Source: a virus
Virus record (IMG/VR): IMGVR_UViG_3300022693_000155
Location: 1-50,141 of that record
Direction: 5' to 3' (one strand)
DNA length: 50,141 bases
In this document: one piece after another, positions 12,034 to 50,021 of the stretch
How the letters are laid out: each line of letters starts with the position of its first letter
Numbering within the stretch: the stretch's first letter is position 1
Translations under genes and position numbers: made by a program
Notes under the pieces: generated by a model
What the model was told of the DNA's origin: nothing
Seen by the model: the letters and a program-made list of their open reading frames with translations, nothing else
Database searches by the model: none

Positions 12034-12110
12034 GGGCGTGTAGCTCAAGCGAATAGAGCAGGATTCTTCTAAAATCCAGGTTGAGAGTTTGAATCTCTCC
12101 ACGTCCGCCA
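12034..12110 (+). tRNA. tRNA-Arg (anticodon UCU)
   Basis: A 77-nt cloverleaf. The acceptor GGGCGTG pairs with CACGTCC (one G-U), the D arm is GCTC/GAGC, the anticodon stem is GGATT/AATCC with loop CTTCTAA giving UCU, and the T arm is GAGAG/CTCTC. The discriminator is G and CCA is encoded. It reads AGA, a codon this phage uses often, so it probably supplements the host pool in late translation. It is co-transcribed with the rightward early genes. Confidence 0.95.
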
Positions 12111-13223: not shown

Positions 13224-13949
13224 ATGGAAGAAAAGGCTTCAGTTTATTGGATACGACTTCCAAAACATGTAGACCCATATAAAGAAGGTTACATTGGGTT
13301 TACTTCCACAAGTATAGAAGAACGGTTCAAACGCCATGTTAAATCTGCCAAACATGGTTCGGATTATATTATCCATAAAGCTATTAGGAAGTATGGTGAA
13401 GATTCTCTGACAGTGGATACTTTATTTGAAGGAACCATTCAGGAGGCTTACGATGAAGAATTAAAATACCGACCTAAGATATGGACTGGTTGGAACATTT
13501 GTGCAGGAGGAAAAGGAGGAAACTCGCCGTTCATTAAAAGCCTCTGGGCAGACCCTGAAATGAGAGAACATCTGGAAGAGTGCGGAAGAAAAAGAATGCT
13601 TACTCAATGGGAGTGTGAGGAATACCGAAAAGAAATTGCCCAGATGACTACGGATACTTGGAAAGACGAAGAAACACGCCGTAAAAGAGTCGAGGGCATC
13701 TCCAGAGGTTCTTACCAAAGATACGAAAGAGACGGCCCGTGGGCAAACCCTAGAACTAAAAAGGAAACTTGGAAGAATGCTGATAAGTTGATAGAAACGT
13801 GGGAAGCCAATGGTAAACCAGGATCACATGTACTTTCAAGATTAACGGGTTACACCGTATCGTCTCTACAAGTTATCGTCAAGTATTTCCAATCGGGTTG
13901 GCATCCACTTGAAGACGACAGATGGAAGAGAGACTTTCTACATGAGTGA
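13224..13949 (+). CDS. Free-standing GIY-YIG homing endonuclease
   Basis: The N-terminus carries a diverged GIY-YIG core: VYWIRL at 8-13 and GYIGFTS at 22-28, then SIEERFKRHV with the expected arginine. The C-terminal part (RMLTQWECEEYRKEIAQ, repeated lysine/arginine-rich segments, and a possible HTH near LSRLTGYTVSSLQVIVKYF) would bind DNA. It sits between terS and terL, 2 bases after terS and overlapping terL by 8 bases, so it is free-standing rather than inside an intron. It likely cuts terminase DNA in related phages to spread itself. Confidence 0.85.
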   Translation: MEEKASVYWIRLPKHVDPYKEGYIGFTSTSIEERFKRHVKSAKHGSDYIIHKAIRKYGEDSLTVDTLFEGTIQEAYDEELKYRPKIWTGWNICAGGKGGNSPFIKSLWADPEMREHLEECGRKRMLTQWECEEYRKEIAQMTTDTWKDEETRRKRVEGISRGSYQRYERDGPWANPRTKKETWKNADKLIETWEANGKPGSHVLSRLTGYTVSSLQVIVKYFQSGWHPLEDDRWKRDFLHE

Positions 13950-45608: not shown

Positions 45609-45869
45609 TTAATCAAATAATTCGTCAGGGTCATGGTATTTATACTTCCTTAAAAGATCATCATAACCGCCTACGATTGCTGAAGTACCTTCGAGAGAAG
45701 AATCAACAATGAATGGGACAGTCTTACGGTTCATTTCATGTTTAACAAAATGCAGAGCCTTTTCATCTTGTGAAATGTCGATGTATTGGTGATTGAGATT
45801 CAATTTCTGAATGTATTCTAGAGCTAGTGTGCAGTATGGGCAGTTGGGTTTACCGTAAATGAATAGCAT
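45609..45869 (-). CDS. Glutaredoxin
   Basis: 86-aa redox protein. CPYC lies at 10-13, the cis-proline segment KTVPFIVD at about 49-56, and GGYDDLL at the end. It reduces the active-site disulphide of ribonucleotide reductase, which is encoded in the same operon. The gene lies at the end of the nrd operon next to the bidirectional terminator. Confidence 0.92.
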   Translation of the reverse strand: MLFIYGKPNCPYCTLALEYIQKLNLNHQYIDISQDEKALHFVKHEMNRKTVPFIVDSSLEGTSAIVGGYDDLLRKYKYHDPDELFD

Positions 45870-46084: not shown

Positions 46085-48778
46085 TTATGCTTCACAAGCC
46101 ACGCAGTCATCCTTACGGCCCGTAGCAAGTTGTTTAGAGGCGTTCAAGTTGTATTGGTAGTAGAGTGATACAACACCACGTTCCCAAGCATAATACATAA
46201 GACTGTTAATCTCTTTCACAGGCATACTTGGATGAACCATGATATTCAAAGACTGGCTCTGGTCATAATATACCTGACGATCAGCGGCGTGGTCAATAAT
46301 TTCTTTAGGACTGATTTCTTGCATTGTCTTGAACACATTCTTTTCATGTTCACTCAAGAAGTCCAGATGCTGAACACTGCCATCATTTTTAGAAATGCTG
46401 TCCCAAACGTCAGGTGTGTCCTTGCCATATTCTTGCAAAAGCTTTTCCAATGCTGAACTTTTAACTTCTACCTTGAGCTTTGCAAAATCAGCAATGTAAT
46501 AGTTAGAGAATAGTGGCTCAATACCCTGCGACACACCGCCAGCCAAAAGACTTGAAGACTTTGTAGGGGCGCACGCCATGAGCGTTGTGTTACGTCTCCC
46601 ATACCCTTCAAGCACTTCAGGTTCACCAAACAATCCTGCAAGCTCTTTAGAAGCCTTGTAAGCCTTCTCTTCAATAACCTTATGGACTTCTTTGTTCAAT
46701 TCTCTTGCTTCTTCAGACTCAAAAGGGATCATCTTGTCTTGAAGCATTGTGTGGTAAGCTAGTACGCCCATTCCGAGCGCTCTGTGACGCTTCATAAAAC
46801 GATATGCACGCTTCATAAAAAAGAATGTTGTTTCCTTTTCATGGTCTTCAGAATCCCTCATAGCTTCAAGTTTCTCAAGGCTTTCTGTAACTACTGAGTC
46901 AAGGAAGTACACAAGTGTTTCTACAGCATCCGTGTCTTTCCAATCATCATACTTCTTCAAGTTCATTGATGAAAGCACGCACACAAAGCTCTCTTCATTG
47001 TTTGAAGGCAGTGATATTTCCGAGCATTGGCCTGTCAAAATACCGTTAAACATACCCATTCCACGTTTACTTTCAGTGAAACAGTAGGTGTTGTCATAAC
47101 GCCCCTCATCAATAACTTCTACCACTTTGTTGAAGTGGCTGCATTCACGGTTCCCACGATAACTGTAGTCAAGATTAAGGCGGCTAAATTTTATACCTAA
47201 ATCTACAAGCTTGCCTACTTCATGTTGACCGAGCAATAATCTCCAAGCTTCTTGGCAATAGAACGCTTTATTCTCACCAGAACCATCATTAGCAGGCATC
47301 GTCCTTTCACCAGCATCGGCAGCATGGTTGATACGTGAGTTGACCCCAAGCGTTTGCAGCATCATTTGAACATCTTGCAAAAACCCTTTGTTAATACTCC
47401 CCAGTTGCAAGGATTGTGTCTTTCCATTTCTGGCGATTGTCCCATCAGAATCGAATATACCTGCTAACCATTCTAAACGACTTTCTACAGTATAGTCATG
47501 GGTAGGCACAAAGAACTTATCTTTCAATACATCGCTGTGACCATACTCTCGGTTCAAGTTGTCTTGAACATACCAATTTTTAAAGATGTCTCCAAGCCGT
47601 TCTTTTACAGCATTGAGTCTTTTGTCGTGGTAGAGGTAAATGCGTTTTCCGTCAGCAGTTAAGCAGCCATCGCCAGTATAGAAACCGTTTGCGTAAGCGT
47701 TGTCTAGGACTTCGGAACCCTCTACGACAGGCAAAGAGTCAAACTTAATCAGTTTATCACCGGTTTGCAATTCCTGTGCGCGCTTTTCAATCACTTTACT
47801 ACGGCTGTAGGAAGTCTGCACATAGAACTTATGGTAAGGTGTACATTCTAGTTCCAATCCATTAGAAGTAATAACCTTTACAAGCTTCTGGTTATCCCCT
47901 GTCCTTCGAACTGTAGTTTCAGACCACTCTTTACCATTCCATACTTGTACATCTTCATTTTCTAATTCGGCAATTTCGATATAACCTTCAGAAGTTAAGA
48001 TTTTAGTCTCGGGGGATACACAAAGATTACTAGAGTGAATATCCATACCCTTGTCTTTGTAGACTTCTGGTTTATTTCGATTTGCGTTATCCAACCACAC
48101 CAAGTACGGAAAGCCTATCTCTCCACGAACTTTCAAAGTTTTCGCCCAAATCTTACGGTTCCGCTTATCTCTTTCAGTCTCCCCGCGTTTAACAGATTCC
48201 ATAAATTCATCTGAAACAGTGACACCTGTAGTGACATCTTGAATCAAATTACCGTCGCGGGCAATCTCTAAAAACTCTTCTGCGTCCGCGTGCTCAAGAC
48301 TTAGATAGGGTGCTACCCGACCCCTCCGCTGCGAACCTTGAGAGATTACATCAGTAACCTGCTCGAAGAGTCGTGCAAAATGTACTGCTCCAGAAGTCTT
48401 TCCATTATTGGTAATGTCGCTACCCCTTGGTCGAATAGGTGTTAGATTAACTGACGTGCCACCCCCAAGTTTTGACATAATACCAATCTCAGACTGTGTA
48501 AAAAGAATGTCTGGAATGCTGTCTTCACAGTGACTGTTAAAACATGAGATAGGCAACCCACGATCTTCACGGCCATAGTTTGCCCACACAGGACTCGACA
48601 AGCTATAGAAACCCTTTGCCATGTAGTCATACATCTTGTCAGAGAATCCTTCTAACCCAAGACGTTTCTCAGCAGCATCGCAAATATCTCGGATACGTCC
48701 TTCGGCAGTTTCTCCCTCTAATGTGTATCCAGACTGTAGAAATTTACGTGAGTTTTCGTTCAACCATTCAAATGACAT
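46085..48778 (-). CDS. nrdA: Ribonucleotide reductase large subunit with intein
   Basis: An 897-aa precursor. Without the 332-residue intein (C253-Q584) the enzyme is 565 aa. Class I alpha subunit reducing NDPs. The redox cysteines are C79 (PISCFNSH), C585 (SNL-C-SEI, equivalent to E. coli thiyl-radical C439) and C600 (ESFVCVLSS, equivalent to C462). KLGGGTSVNLTPIRPRG is the nucleotide region. The C-terminal DDCVACEA is the swinging CxxC that glutaredoxin reduces. There is no N-terminal ATP-cone. AGGAG lies 10 bases before the ATG, just after nrdB. Confidence 0.93.
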   Translation of the reverse strand: MSFEWLNENSRKFLQSGYTLEGETAEGRIRDICDAAEKRLGLEGFSDKMYDYMAKGFYSLSSPVWANYGREDRGLPISCFNSHCEDSIPDILFTQSEIGIMSKLGGGTSVNLTPIRPRGSDITNNGKTSGAVHFARLFEQVTDVISQGSQRRGRVAPYLSLEHADAEEFLEIARDGNLIQDVTTGVTVSDEFMESVKRGETERDKRNRKIWAKTLKVRGEIGFPYLVWLDNANRNKPEVYKDKGMDIHSSNLCVSPETKILTSEGYIEIAELENEDVQVWNGKEWSETTVRRTGDNQKLVKVITSNGLELECTPYHKFYVQTSYSRSKVIEKRAQELQTGDKLIKFDSLPVVEGSEVLDNAYANGFYTGDGCLTADGKRIYLYHDKRLNAVKERLGDIFKNWYVQDNLNREYGHSDVLKDKFFVPTHDYTVESRLEWLAGIFDSDGTIARNGKTQSLQLGSINKGFLQDVQMMLQTLGVNSRINHAADAGERTMPANDGSGENKAFYCQEAWRLLLGQHEVGKLVDLGIKFSRLNLDYSYRGNRECSHFNKVVEVIDEGRYDNTYCFTESKRGMGMFNGILTGQCSEISLPSNNEESFVCVLSSMNLKKYDDWKDTDAVETLVYFLDSVVTESLEKLEAMRDSEDHEKETTFFFMKRAYRFMKRHRALGMGVLAYHTMLQDKMIPFESEEARELNKEVHKVIEEKAYKASKELAGLFGEPEVLEGYGRRNTTLMACAPTKSSSLLAGGVSQGIEPLFSNYYIADFAKLKVEVKSSALEKLLQEYGKDTPDVWDSISKNDGSVQHLDFLSEHEKNVFKTMQEISPKEIIDHAADRQVYYDQSQSLNIMVHPSMPVKEINSLMYYAWERGVVSLYYQYNLNASKQLATGRKDDCVACEA
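47027..48022 (-). mobile_element. LAGLIDADG intein in NrdA
   Basis: Splicing block A is CVSPETKILTSEGYIEI from C253, and block B is ECTPYHKFYV. The endonuclease helices are YANGFYTGDGCL (about 362-373) and WLAGIFDSDGTIA (about 437-449). Blocks F/G end NTYCFTESKRGMGMF, then NGILTGQ before the +1 Cys. The C-terminal residue is Gln instead of the usual Asn, and the penultimate residue is Gly instead of His. Self-splicing restores a continuous SNL-CSEI active site. Confidence 0.9.
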
Positions 48779-48794
48779 TATTAAATATCTCCTA

Positions 48795-50021
48795 TTAAAA
48801 CAAGTCGTCTTCAGTAAATGACTTATTAACCTTGGTGTAGTTTACGTTCTTACGTGCAAAGAAATCAGGATTGGTGGTACTGTTCACCTGAATTTCAAAC
48901 CACTGGAACTTCTCTTTCGTCTTATCTTGTACTTCAAAAACCTCTGGGAAACCGATCATTTCCATGCTCTTGTTGAAACGCCAACGTAGATAATCTTTGA
49001 CTTCTTCTTTTGAAACAAAATCTAAATCGCCACCTTCAAAAATCCAATCCAAAATCTCACTTTCTGCATCCATACTGACTTTGCAAGCATCATGAGTATC
49101 TTGAACAAGCGCCTCAGTAAACCAATCAGGATTCTCTTCTTTGATCGTGTTGATGATCTCGGCACCAAACATGGCGTGAACGCTCTCATCACAAGCAGAG
49201 CTTTGAACAACATTGCTAATGCCTACCAGCATATTCTTGTAGTTGTCAAAGCATGACATAATCAAGAATTGCCCAAACAATGATACATTCTCAACAAACA
49301 TTGAGAAGAGCAACACTGAACGCATGAACTCTTTGTTGCTTGAATCATTGGGTGATACAAAACGCTTTAGGTATTCTTGCCGCTTACGAAGACAATCAAT
49401 GTTATCAAGGTCTTCAAAAAGCTCATTCATCCCAAGGTACTCTAAAAGCTGTGAATAAGCTGTTGCGTGGATAGATTCGTTGTTACTGAAAGCTGCTCCT
49501 ACATCTGCCACTTCAGGCTTGGGTAAACGGTCGTAAAGTTTTCCCCAGAAGGTTTTCACAAACCTCGCTTCGATCTGTGAAATAGCCAGCATTGTCCGTT
49601 GGATTACTTGGCGTTCATTCTCACTTAGTTCTGAATGATACTCTTGGATAGACGCTGTGAAGTTAAACTCATCAACTACCCAGAACGCTTGGTGTACAGC
49701 ATCCATGTATTGCTTAAAATGCGGATACTCAAACGGTTTGTAGTTCTCCCTTGGTCGAAAAATATCCGGTTCATGTGCCTTACGATAAGTCTCCCTAGCG
49801 ACATCAAAAGCCTTAGCGTTCATAATCCCATCTTCGACAAGTTTATGAACCGTATCAACACTCACAATATCATCTTCAATATTCTTCTTCACATACCGTA
49901 CTACTTTATCTTGCAGCTTATCATCTTCATAGTCAGTCCGTGACATTGCTTTACCAACGGCTGCTTTAATCTTCTCACCATCAAAACTTACAACGTCACC
50001 ATTACGCTTCAATACTTGCAT
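48795..50021 (-). CDS. nrdB: Ribonucleotide reductase small subunit with N-terminal ATP-cone
   Basis: 408 aa. Residues 1-90 form an ATP-cone (VLKRNGDVVSFDGEKIKAA), which senses ATP/dATP. The ferritin-like core carries metal ligands E151, E182-x2-H185 (NNESIHATAY), E244, and E279-x2-H282 (CDESVHAM). Tyr189 lies four residues after the first His, as does the radical tyrosine of E. coli NrdB. The tail KSFTEDDLF would dock with NrdA. It is first in the nrdB-nrdA operon; allosteric control is probably through this subunit. Confidence 0.93.
   Translation of the reverse strand: MQVLKRNGDVVSFDGEKIKAAVGKAMSRTDYEDDKLQDKVVRYVKKNIEDDIVSVDTVHKLVEDGIMNAKAFDVARETYRKAHEPDIFRPRENYKPFEYPHFKQYMDAVHQAFWVVDEFNFTASIQEYHSELSENERQVIQRTMLAISQIEARFVKTFWGKLYDRLPKPEVADVGAAFSNNESIHATAYSQLLEYLGMNELFEDLDNIDCLRKRQEYLKRFVSPNDSSNKEFMRSVLLFSMFVENVSLFGQFLIMSCFDNYKNMLVGISNVVQSSACDESVHAMFGAEIINTIKEENPDWFTEALVQDTHDACKVSMDAESEILDWIFEGGDLDFVSKEEVKDYLRWRFNKSMEMIGFPEVFEVQDKTKEKFQWFEIQVNSTTNPDFFARKNVNYTKVNKSFTEDDLF

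Follow-up and report, generated by a model that had tools for sequence, protein, structure and literature searches.

The closest described relative of the reductase analysed here is the class Id NrdBi protein of Leeuwenhoekiella blandensis, which carries its ATP-cone on NrdB and is fully inhibited by dATP (PMC8350387), with a reported Ki of 20 µM. In the dATP-bound tetramer of this protein, Met80, Ile92 and Ile93 make up the hydrophobic core, and the same study (eLife 2018) listed 93 NrdBi proteins with N-terminal cones, from viruses and bacteria (PMC5794259). Cones on beta subunits are found almost only in beta-alpha operons (PMC9669993). The NrdBi signature consists of a Glu as the first metal ligand, a strictly conserved Trp and a Lys three residues before this Trp (PMC6754362); in L. 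blandensis, Lys174 lies in a loop (171-175) that refolds when metal is loaded (PMC6754362; PMC5794259). In PcNrdD, the base of the outer dATP stacks on a Tyr of cone helix alpha4 (PMC11226230).

The DNA studied here (the window), a viral record of 50,141 bases, comes from a marine tailed phage with a contractile tail and encodes terminase, portal, major head protein, tail sheath, tape measure, baseplate, fibres, endolysin, ThyX and a Dda-like helicase. Our preferred reading, which we regard as rather probable, is that its nrdB-nrdA pair encodes a phage class I ribonucleotide reductase of the NrdAi/NrdBi (class Id) type, the dATP shut-off of which is weakened or lost in the window strain.

The nrdB-nrdA pair and its class

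The features of the locus are collected in Table 1. The ATP-cone profile PF03477 matched residues 1-81 of NrdB with 53.1 bits (E 4.8e-14; Pfam cut-off 25.8 bits), and Ribonuc_red_sm spanned residues 92-365 (E 5.2e-55). An earlier note, made from the letters alone, had placed a cone of 90 residues at this N-terminus; the profile search bears out the cone and shortens it to about 81-85 residues. The same note had the large subunit start directly at its core, which also holds: no PF03477 match was found on NrdA even at E up to 1, and the cone on NrdB is the sole ATP-cone in the 72.8-kb record of a sister phage, so that a second cone on NrdA was ruled out. Directly before the nrdA start lies the end of nrdB, and the nrdA frame region has a stop there; NrdA therefore has no hidden N-terminal extension. 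It was assigned to TIGR02510 (NrdE-prime, 667.5 bits), the short NrdE-prime/NrdAi type. The gene order nrdB-nrdA-glutaredoxin agrees with the operon rule for beta cones (PMC9669993), and the glutaredoxin-like protein is likely the reductant of the enzyme.

Table 1. Positions of the reductase genes and their parts in the window
Feature	Position	Strand	Description
nrdB	48795..50021	-	radical-generating subunit (NrdBi, class Id type), 408 aa with N-terminal ATP-cone; ATG start, C-terminal DDLF
ATP-cone domain	49767..50021	-	residues 1-85: K5-R6, K17-I18, V-D-x-V-H
Cone helix alpha4	49773..49811	-	residues 71-83; Tyr-Val codons absent at junction 49790/49791
First metal-ligand loop	49545..49571	-	E151-A-R-F-V-K156-T-F-W159, one residue longer (E-x4-K-x2-W)
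Ligands E182, H185 and Tyr189	49455..49484	-	NNESIHATAY; others mostly ESEVRHxDAY, Arg to Ile
Last ligands E279, H282	49176..49205	-	QSSACDESVH; others mostly EATSKEExIH
nrdA	46085..48778	-	catalytic subunit without ATP-cone, 897 aa including intein
LAGLIDADG intein in NrdA	47027..48022	-	residues 253-584; extein junction SSNL/CSEISLP
Glutaredoxin-like gene	45609..45869	-	86 aa, downstream of nrdA

The intein of NrdA is inserted at the conserved Cys of its extein junction and has Gln rather than Asn as its final residue. Elsewhere in the window, a homing endonuclease gene (13224-13949, +) lies directly before the terminase large subunit ORF and overlaps it, and a single tRNA-Arg gene (TCT anticodon; 12034-12110, +) is found near the terminase gene.

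A PDB sequence search with the window NrdB gave L. blandensis NrdBi (PDB ID 5OLK) as the top match over the full length (E 3.8e-101), followed by other class Id NrdBs. When the AlphaFold model was compared with PDB folds, 5OLK was matched by Foldseek (E 1.2e-27) and by VIA (Z 43.9), and the modelled core resembled the Mn-loaded core 6SF5 with a Z of 43.5 and an rmsd of 1.1 Å over 295 residues. All six metal ligands are kept, together with Tyr189, Lys156 and Trp159. The published NrdBi signature is represented by the first ligand E151, K156 and W159, which are invariant in both alignments; the further ligands are E182, H185, E244, E279 and H282, and Thr294, the residue that holds the non-radical Tyr in this class, corresponds to Ser275. 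We infer a dimanganese cofactor, Mn2(IV,III), for the phage NrdB.

The layout with the cone on NrdB is already known in bacteria and phages. About 80 of the 747 phage-collection records matching NrdB align with 80% or more of the query, and the best 60 all start within the cone. When viral contigs were searched with a profile as guide, nearly all of the top 80 had the cone as well, and so did 80/80 of the best bacterial genome loci. All three lists were chosen by full-length similarity, which biases these shares as frequencies. Cones on phage NrdB, proposed in the earlier note as something to look for, thus proved common in phages and viral contigs, and the idea that the layout is rare in phages was ruled out. 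The link drawn there to a known group of cone-bearing NrdBs stands; calling it a small bacterial group is too narrow, as viruses are included in PMC5794259. No near-identical phage was found in the phage DNA collection. In a related phage (L142, IMGVR_UViG_3300028217_000078), an intein-like insert splits the metal-ligand motif of NrdB (ESE/CFSDDTEVL...ITGN/CRH), and this radical subunit seems to need protein splicing.

A two-codon deletion in cone helix alpha4

The 72.8-kb contig L002 represents the sister phage: its NrdB is 99% identical to that of the window, and over the window's last 7 kb the two share 97.7% DNA identity. The same NrdB is present twice (L147 and L148), 72,762 bp apart, on the 114.8-kb contig PAJP01000006.1 of a Methylophaga sp. 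MAG (GTDB). Because of this spacing, PAJP01000006.1 appears to be a phage genome of some 72.8 kb that was assembled beyond unit length; it is a phage contig binned with a bacterium. Over the 7.2 kb that they share, L002 and L147 show 100% identity; as both may derive from one sample, we counted them as one strain. Off the phage contig, the Methylophaga MAG has three cones: two belong to an NrdA frame of 1022 aa, and the third to another frame of 162 aa, whose length and single cone suggest that it may be NrdR. Binning is weak evidence that Methylophaga is the host; should it be, phage and host put the switch on different subunits.

DNA alignment of the window with L002 revealed an in-frame gap of 6 nt (TAT GTT, encoding Tyr-Val) in helix alpha4, where the window reads VARE--TYRK and the sister VAREYVTYRK. 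The full motif is also found in L011, L142, L143 and L146, and the DNA alignment with L002 and L011 ruled out an alignment artefact. The two-nucleotide cone motif A-[KR]-x-[YF]-[IV]-x-[YF]-R is present in L002 and L011 and absent from the window. Among 144 other NrdB cones, the first deleted position is Tyr in 142 and Phe in 2, and the second is Ile in 141 and Val in 3, with gaps at either position in 0/144. From sister to window, the phmmer cone scores fall from 29.9 to 21.7 bits against 5OLK and from 34.8 to 24.8 bits against 8P23. In the AlphaFold models, alpha4 of the sister is one continuous helix (H72-84, block pLDDT 92), whereas that of the window is broken into H72-77 and H80-83, with a pLDDT of 60 for residues 71-80; both models were built from the same 23 sequences, and AlphaFold is no test of stability or binding.

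The deleted residues are the equivalents of L. blandensis Tyr91 and Ile92, the latter lying in the tetramer interface. The outer-site Tyr of PcNrdD aligns with the second Tyr of YIxYR, which the window retains at a position displaced by two; this mapping onto 8P23 ruled out that the deleted Tyr is the outer-site one. The inner-site Lys-Arg and the helix-1 Lys, all at near-invariant positions, are present in the window cone as K5, R6 and K17.

By extension from L. blandensis, which we consider sound, dATP would regulate the phage NrdB through its radical subunit. The 6-nt deletion would then take two near-invariant residues out of alpha4 and throw out of register the Tyr-Arg pair whose Tyr would serve the outer dATP site. 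The window strain would thereby retain a foldable cone and its inner nucleotide site, with a dATP shut-off that may be weakened or lost. AlphaFold breaks alpha4 in the window protein alone, so that an impaired dATP switch is probable for this strain, as is impaired dATP-driven cone pairing. Some nucleotide response may be left, as the inner-site residues are intact, and the helix might adjust via the alpha3-alpha4 loop, the TYRK motif being retained. The proposal in the earlier note that an enzyme of this layout might ignore host dATP does not follow from the layout, because L. blandensis has the same layout and is fully inhibited (PMC8350387). It is plausible in the window strain only, on account of the alpha4 deletion.

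The window and L002 nrdB genes differ by 17 substitutions. The first 300 of 1233 nt contain 14/17 of these, and a single one of the 17 replaces an amino acid, the deletion being the further protein change. The 5' part of the gene therefore represents a different haplotype. This pattern bears on two other readings of the gap. The gene may encode an ordinary, fully working NrdBi whose cone senses dATP like that of L. blandensis; a tighter alpha3-alpha4 loop would then make up for the deletion and hold the Tyr-Arg pair in place. The purifying constraint on the whole gene, the kept TYRK and a cone score well over the Pfam cut-off agree with such an enzyme, but the lost positions are near-invariant and ungapped in every other NrdB cone, the helix is broken with low confidence in the window model only, and the phmmer cone scores drop relative to the sister; we consider this reading doubtful.

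The deletion may also be a sequencing or assembly error, which is possible as it rests on one metagenomic contig and was found in none of the other viral contigs. The real phage would then have an intact YVTYR helix, and the clustered substitutions would fit a place where strains differ and several of them may be co-assembled. An error is nevertheless unlikely, considering that the gap is 6 nt long and exactly in frame in an otherwise intact gene, and that the synonymous differences around it are better explained by a real third haplotype than by random error. The kept frame and the otherwise undamaged gene fit a natural variant and are no proof of a functional effect.

The metal-ligand loop and the origin of the cone

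The first ligand loop has the spacing E-x4-K-x2-W in the window and its sister only, as compared with E-x3-K-x2-W in 192 other loci (77 bacterial and 115 viral, partly non-independent); the E-x3-K spacing, invariant among these other members, is not a published class criterion. An assembly error is unlikely for this insertion, which is also present in the sister strain (L002, L147). The lengthened loop corresponds to L. blandensis residues 171-175; in other respects the core model is standard. Near the remaining ligands, ESIH stands where other loci mostly have EVRH, and SACDESVH where they mostly have TSKEExIH.

These changes might mean that the core is no longer classical class Id, the extra loop residue and the altered second sphere (R to I, K to C, E to D, T to S) going with another cofactor or activation route. 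Such a change would be in line with the confinement of the longer spacing to this phage species, with the likeness of ESIH and DESVH to motifs of unrelated phage NrdB, with the longest terminal branch among 160 cores and with the refolding of the Lys174-bearing loop 171-175 on metal loading in L. blandensis (PMC6754362). We regard it as improbable, given that the six ligands with Glu as the first, the Lys and the Trp are all retained, that the modelled core fits Mn-loaded 6SF5 and that the E-to-K spacing is not among the published criteria of the class.

The cone and the core of the sister NrdB have different relatives. Its cone is 94% identical to that of L011, 71% to L143 and 62% to L146; its core shares only 46% with L143 and 48% with L146, whose cores are 72% alike, and it forms the longest terminal branch in the core tree. 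This suggests that the cone moves between cores, and the comparison fits an exchange of the cone between NrdB cores. Faster core evolution alone would not explain L011 (IMGVR_UViG_3300037991_001592), which has nearly the same cone and a visibly different sequence right after the linker, of which about 35 core residues are readable as the contig ends just past the linker.

Taken together, the window strain may have disarmed the dATP switch of its own reductase through the alpha4 deletion yet kept the domain; the class Id ligand loop of this enzyme would also have been remodelled by an insertion, and its cone would be an exchangeable module among divergent NrdB cores. We put forward this combined account only tentatively. 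Phages need more dNTPs than their hosts, and whether a phage reductase escapes from dATP feedback or keeps it is a real question. Two strains of one phage that differ by two residues in the switch helix are a natural experiment, and the pair would show whether alpha4 of a subunit-borne cone shuts the enzyme off. The one-residue insertion beside the first ligand could in turn test the role proposed for the lysine loop in manganese cofactor formation.

Comparison with known systems

The phage enzyme resembles L. blandensis NrdBi (5OLK, 6SF4/6SF5) in its full-length match, N-terminal cone, Glu first ligand, matching C-terminus, Lys and Trp in the first helix, and a NrdA without a cone. It differs in that the window protein is 41% identical, the ligand loop is longer by one residue, Thr294 is replaced by Ser and Asp73 by Lys, and alpha4 of the window-strain cone is short by two residues. 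The class Id NrdB of Facklamia (Falseniella) ignava (PMC6187632; PMC6754362; locus L154) likewise bears a cone on a radical subunit with an NrdBi core; there, glutaredoxin, ATP-cone and core are fused, whereas the glutaredoxin is a separate downstream gene in the window.

The cones of aeruginosa NrdA (5IM3) and P. copri NrdD (8P23), which are among the best matches of the sister cone, share the inner-site Lys-Arg and the following helix; unlike the phage cone, they are located on the catalytic subunit and have an intact outer-site helix alpha4. The NrdB proteins of Salicola phage SCTP-2, Sporosarcina phage Lietuvens and Staphylococcus Silviavirus-type phages are 40-46% identical over the full length, carry an N-terminal cone and adjoin a cone-less NrdA, as in the window phage, but have the standard E-x3-K-x2-W loop and an intact alpha4 of the YIxYR type.
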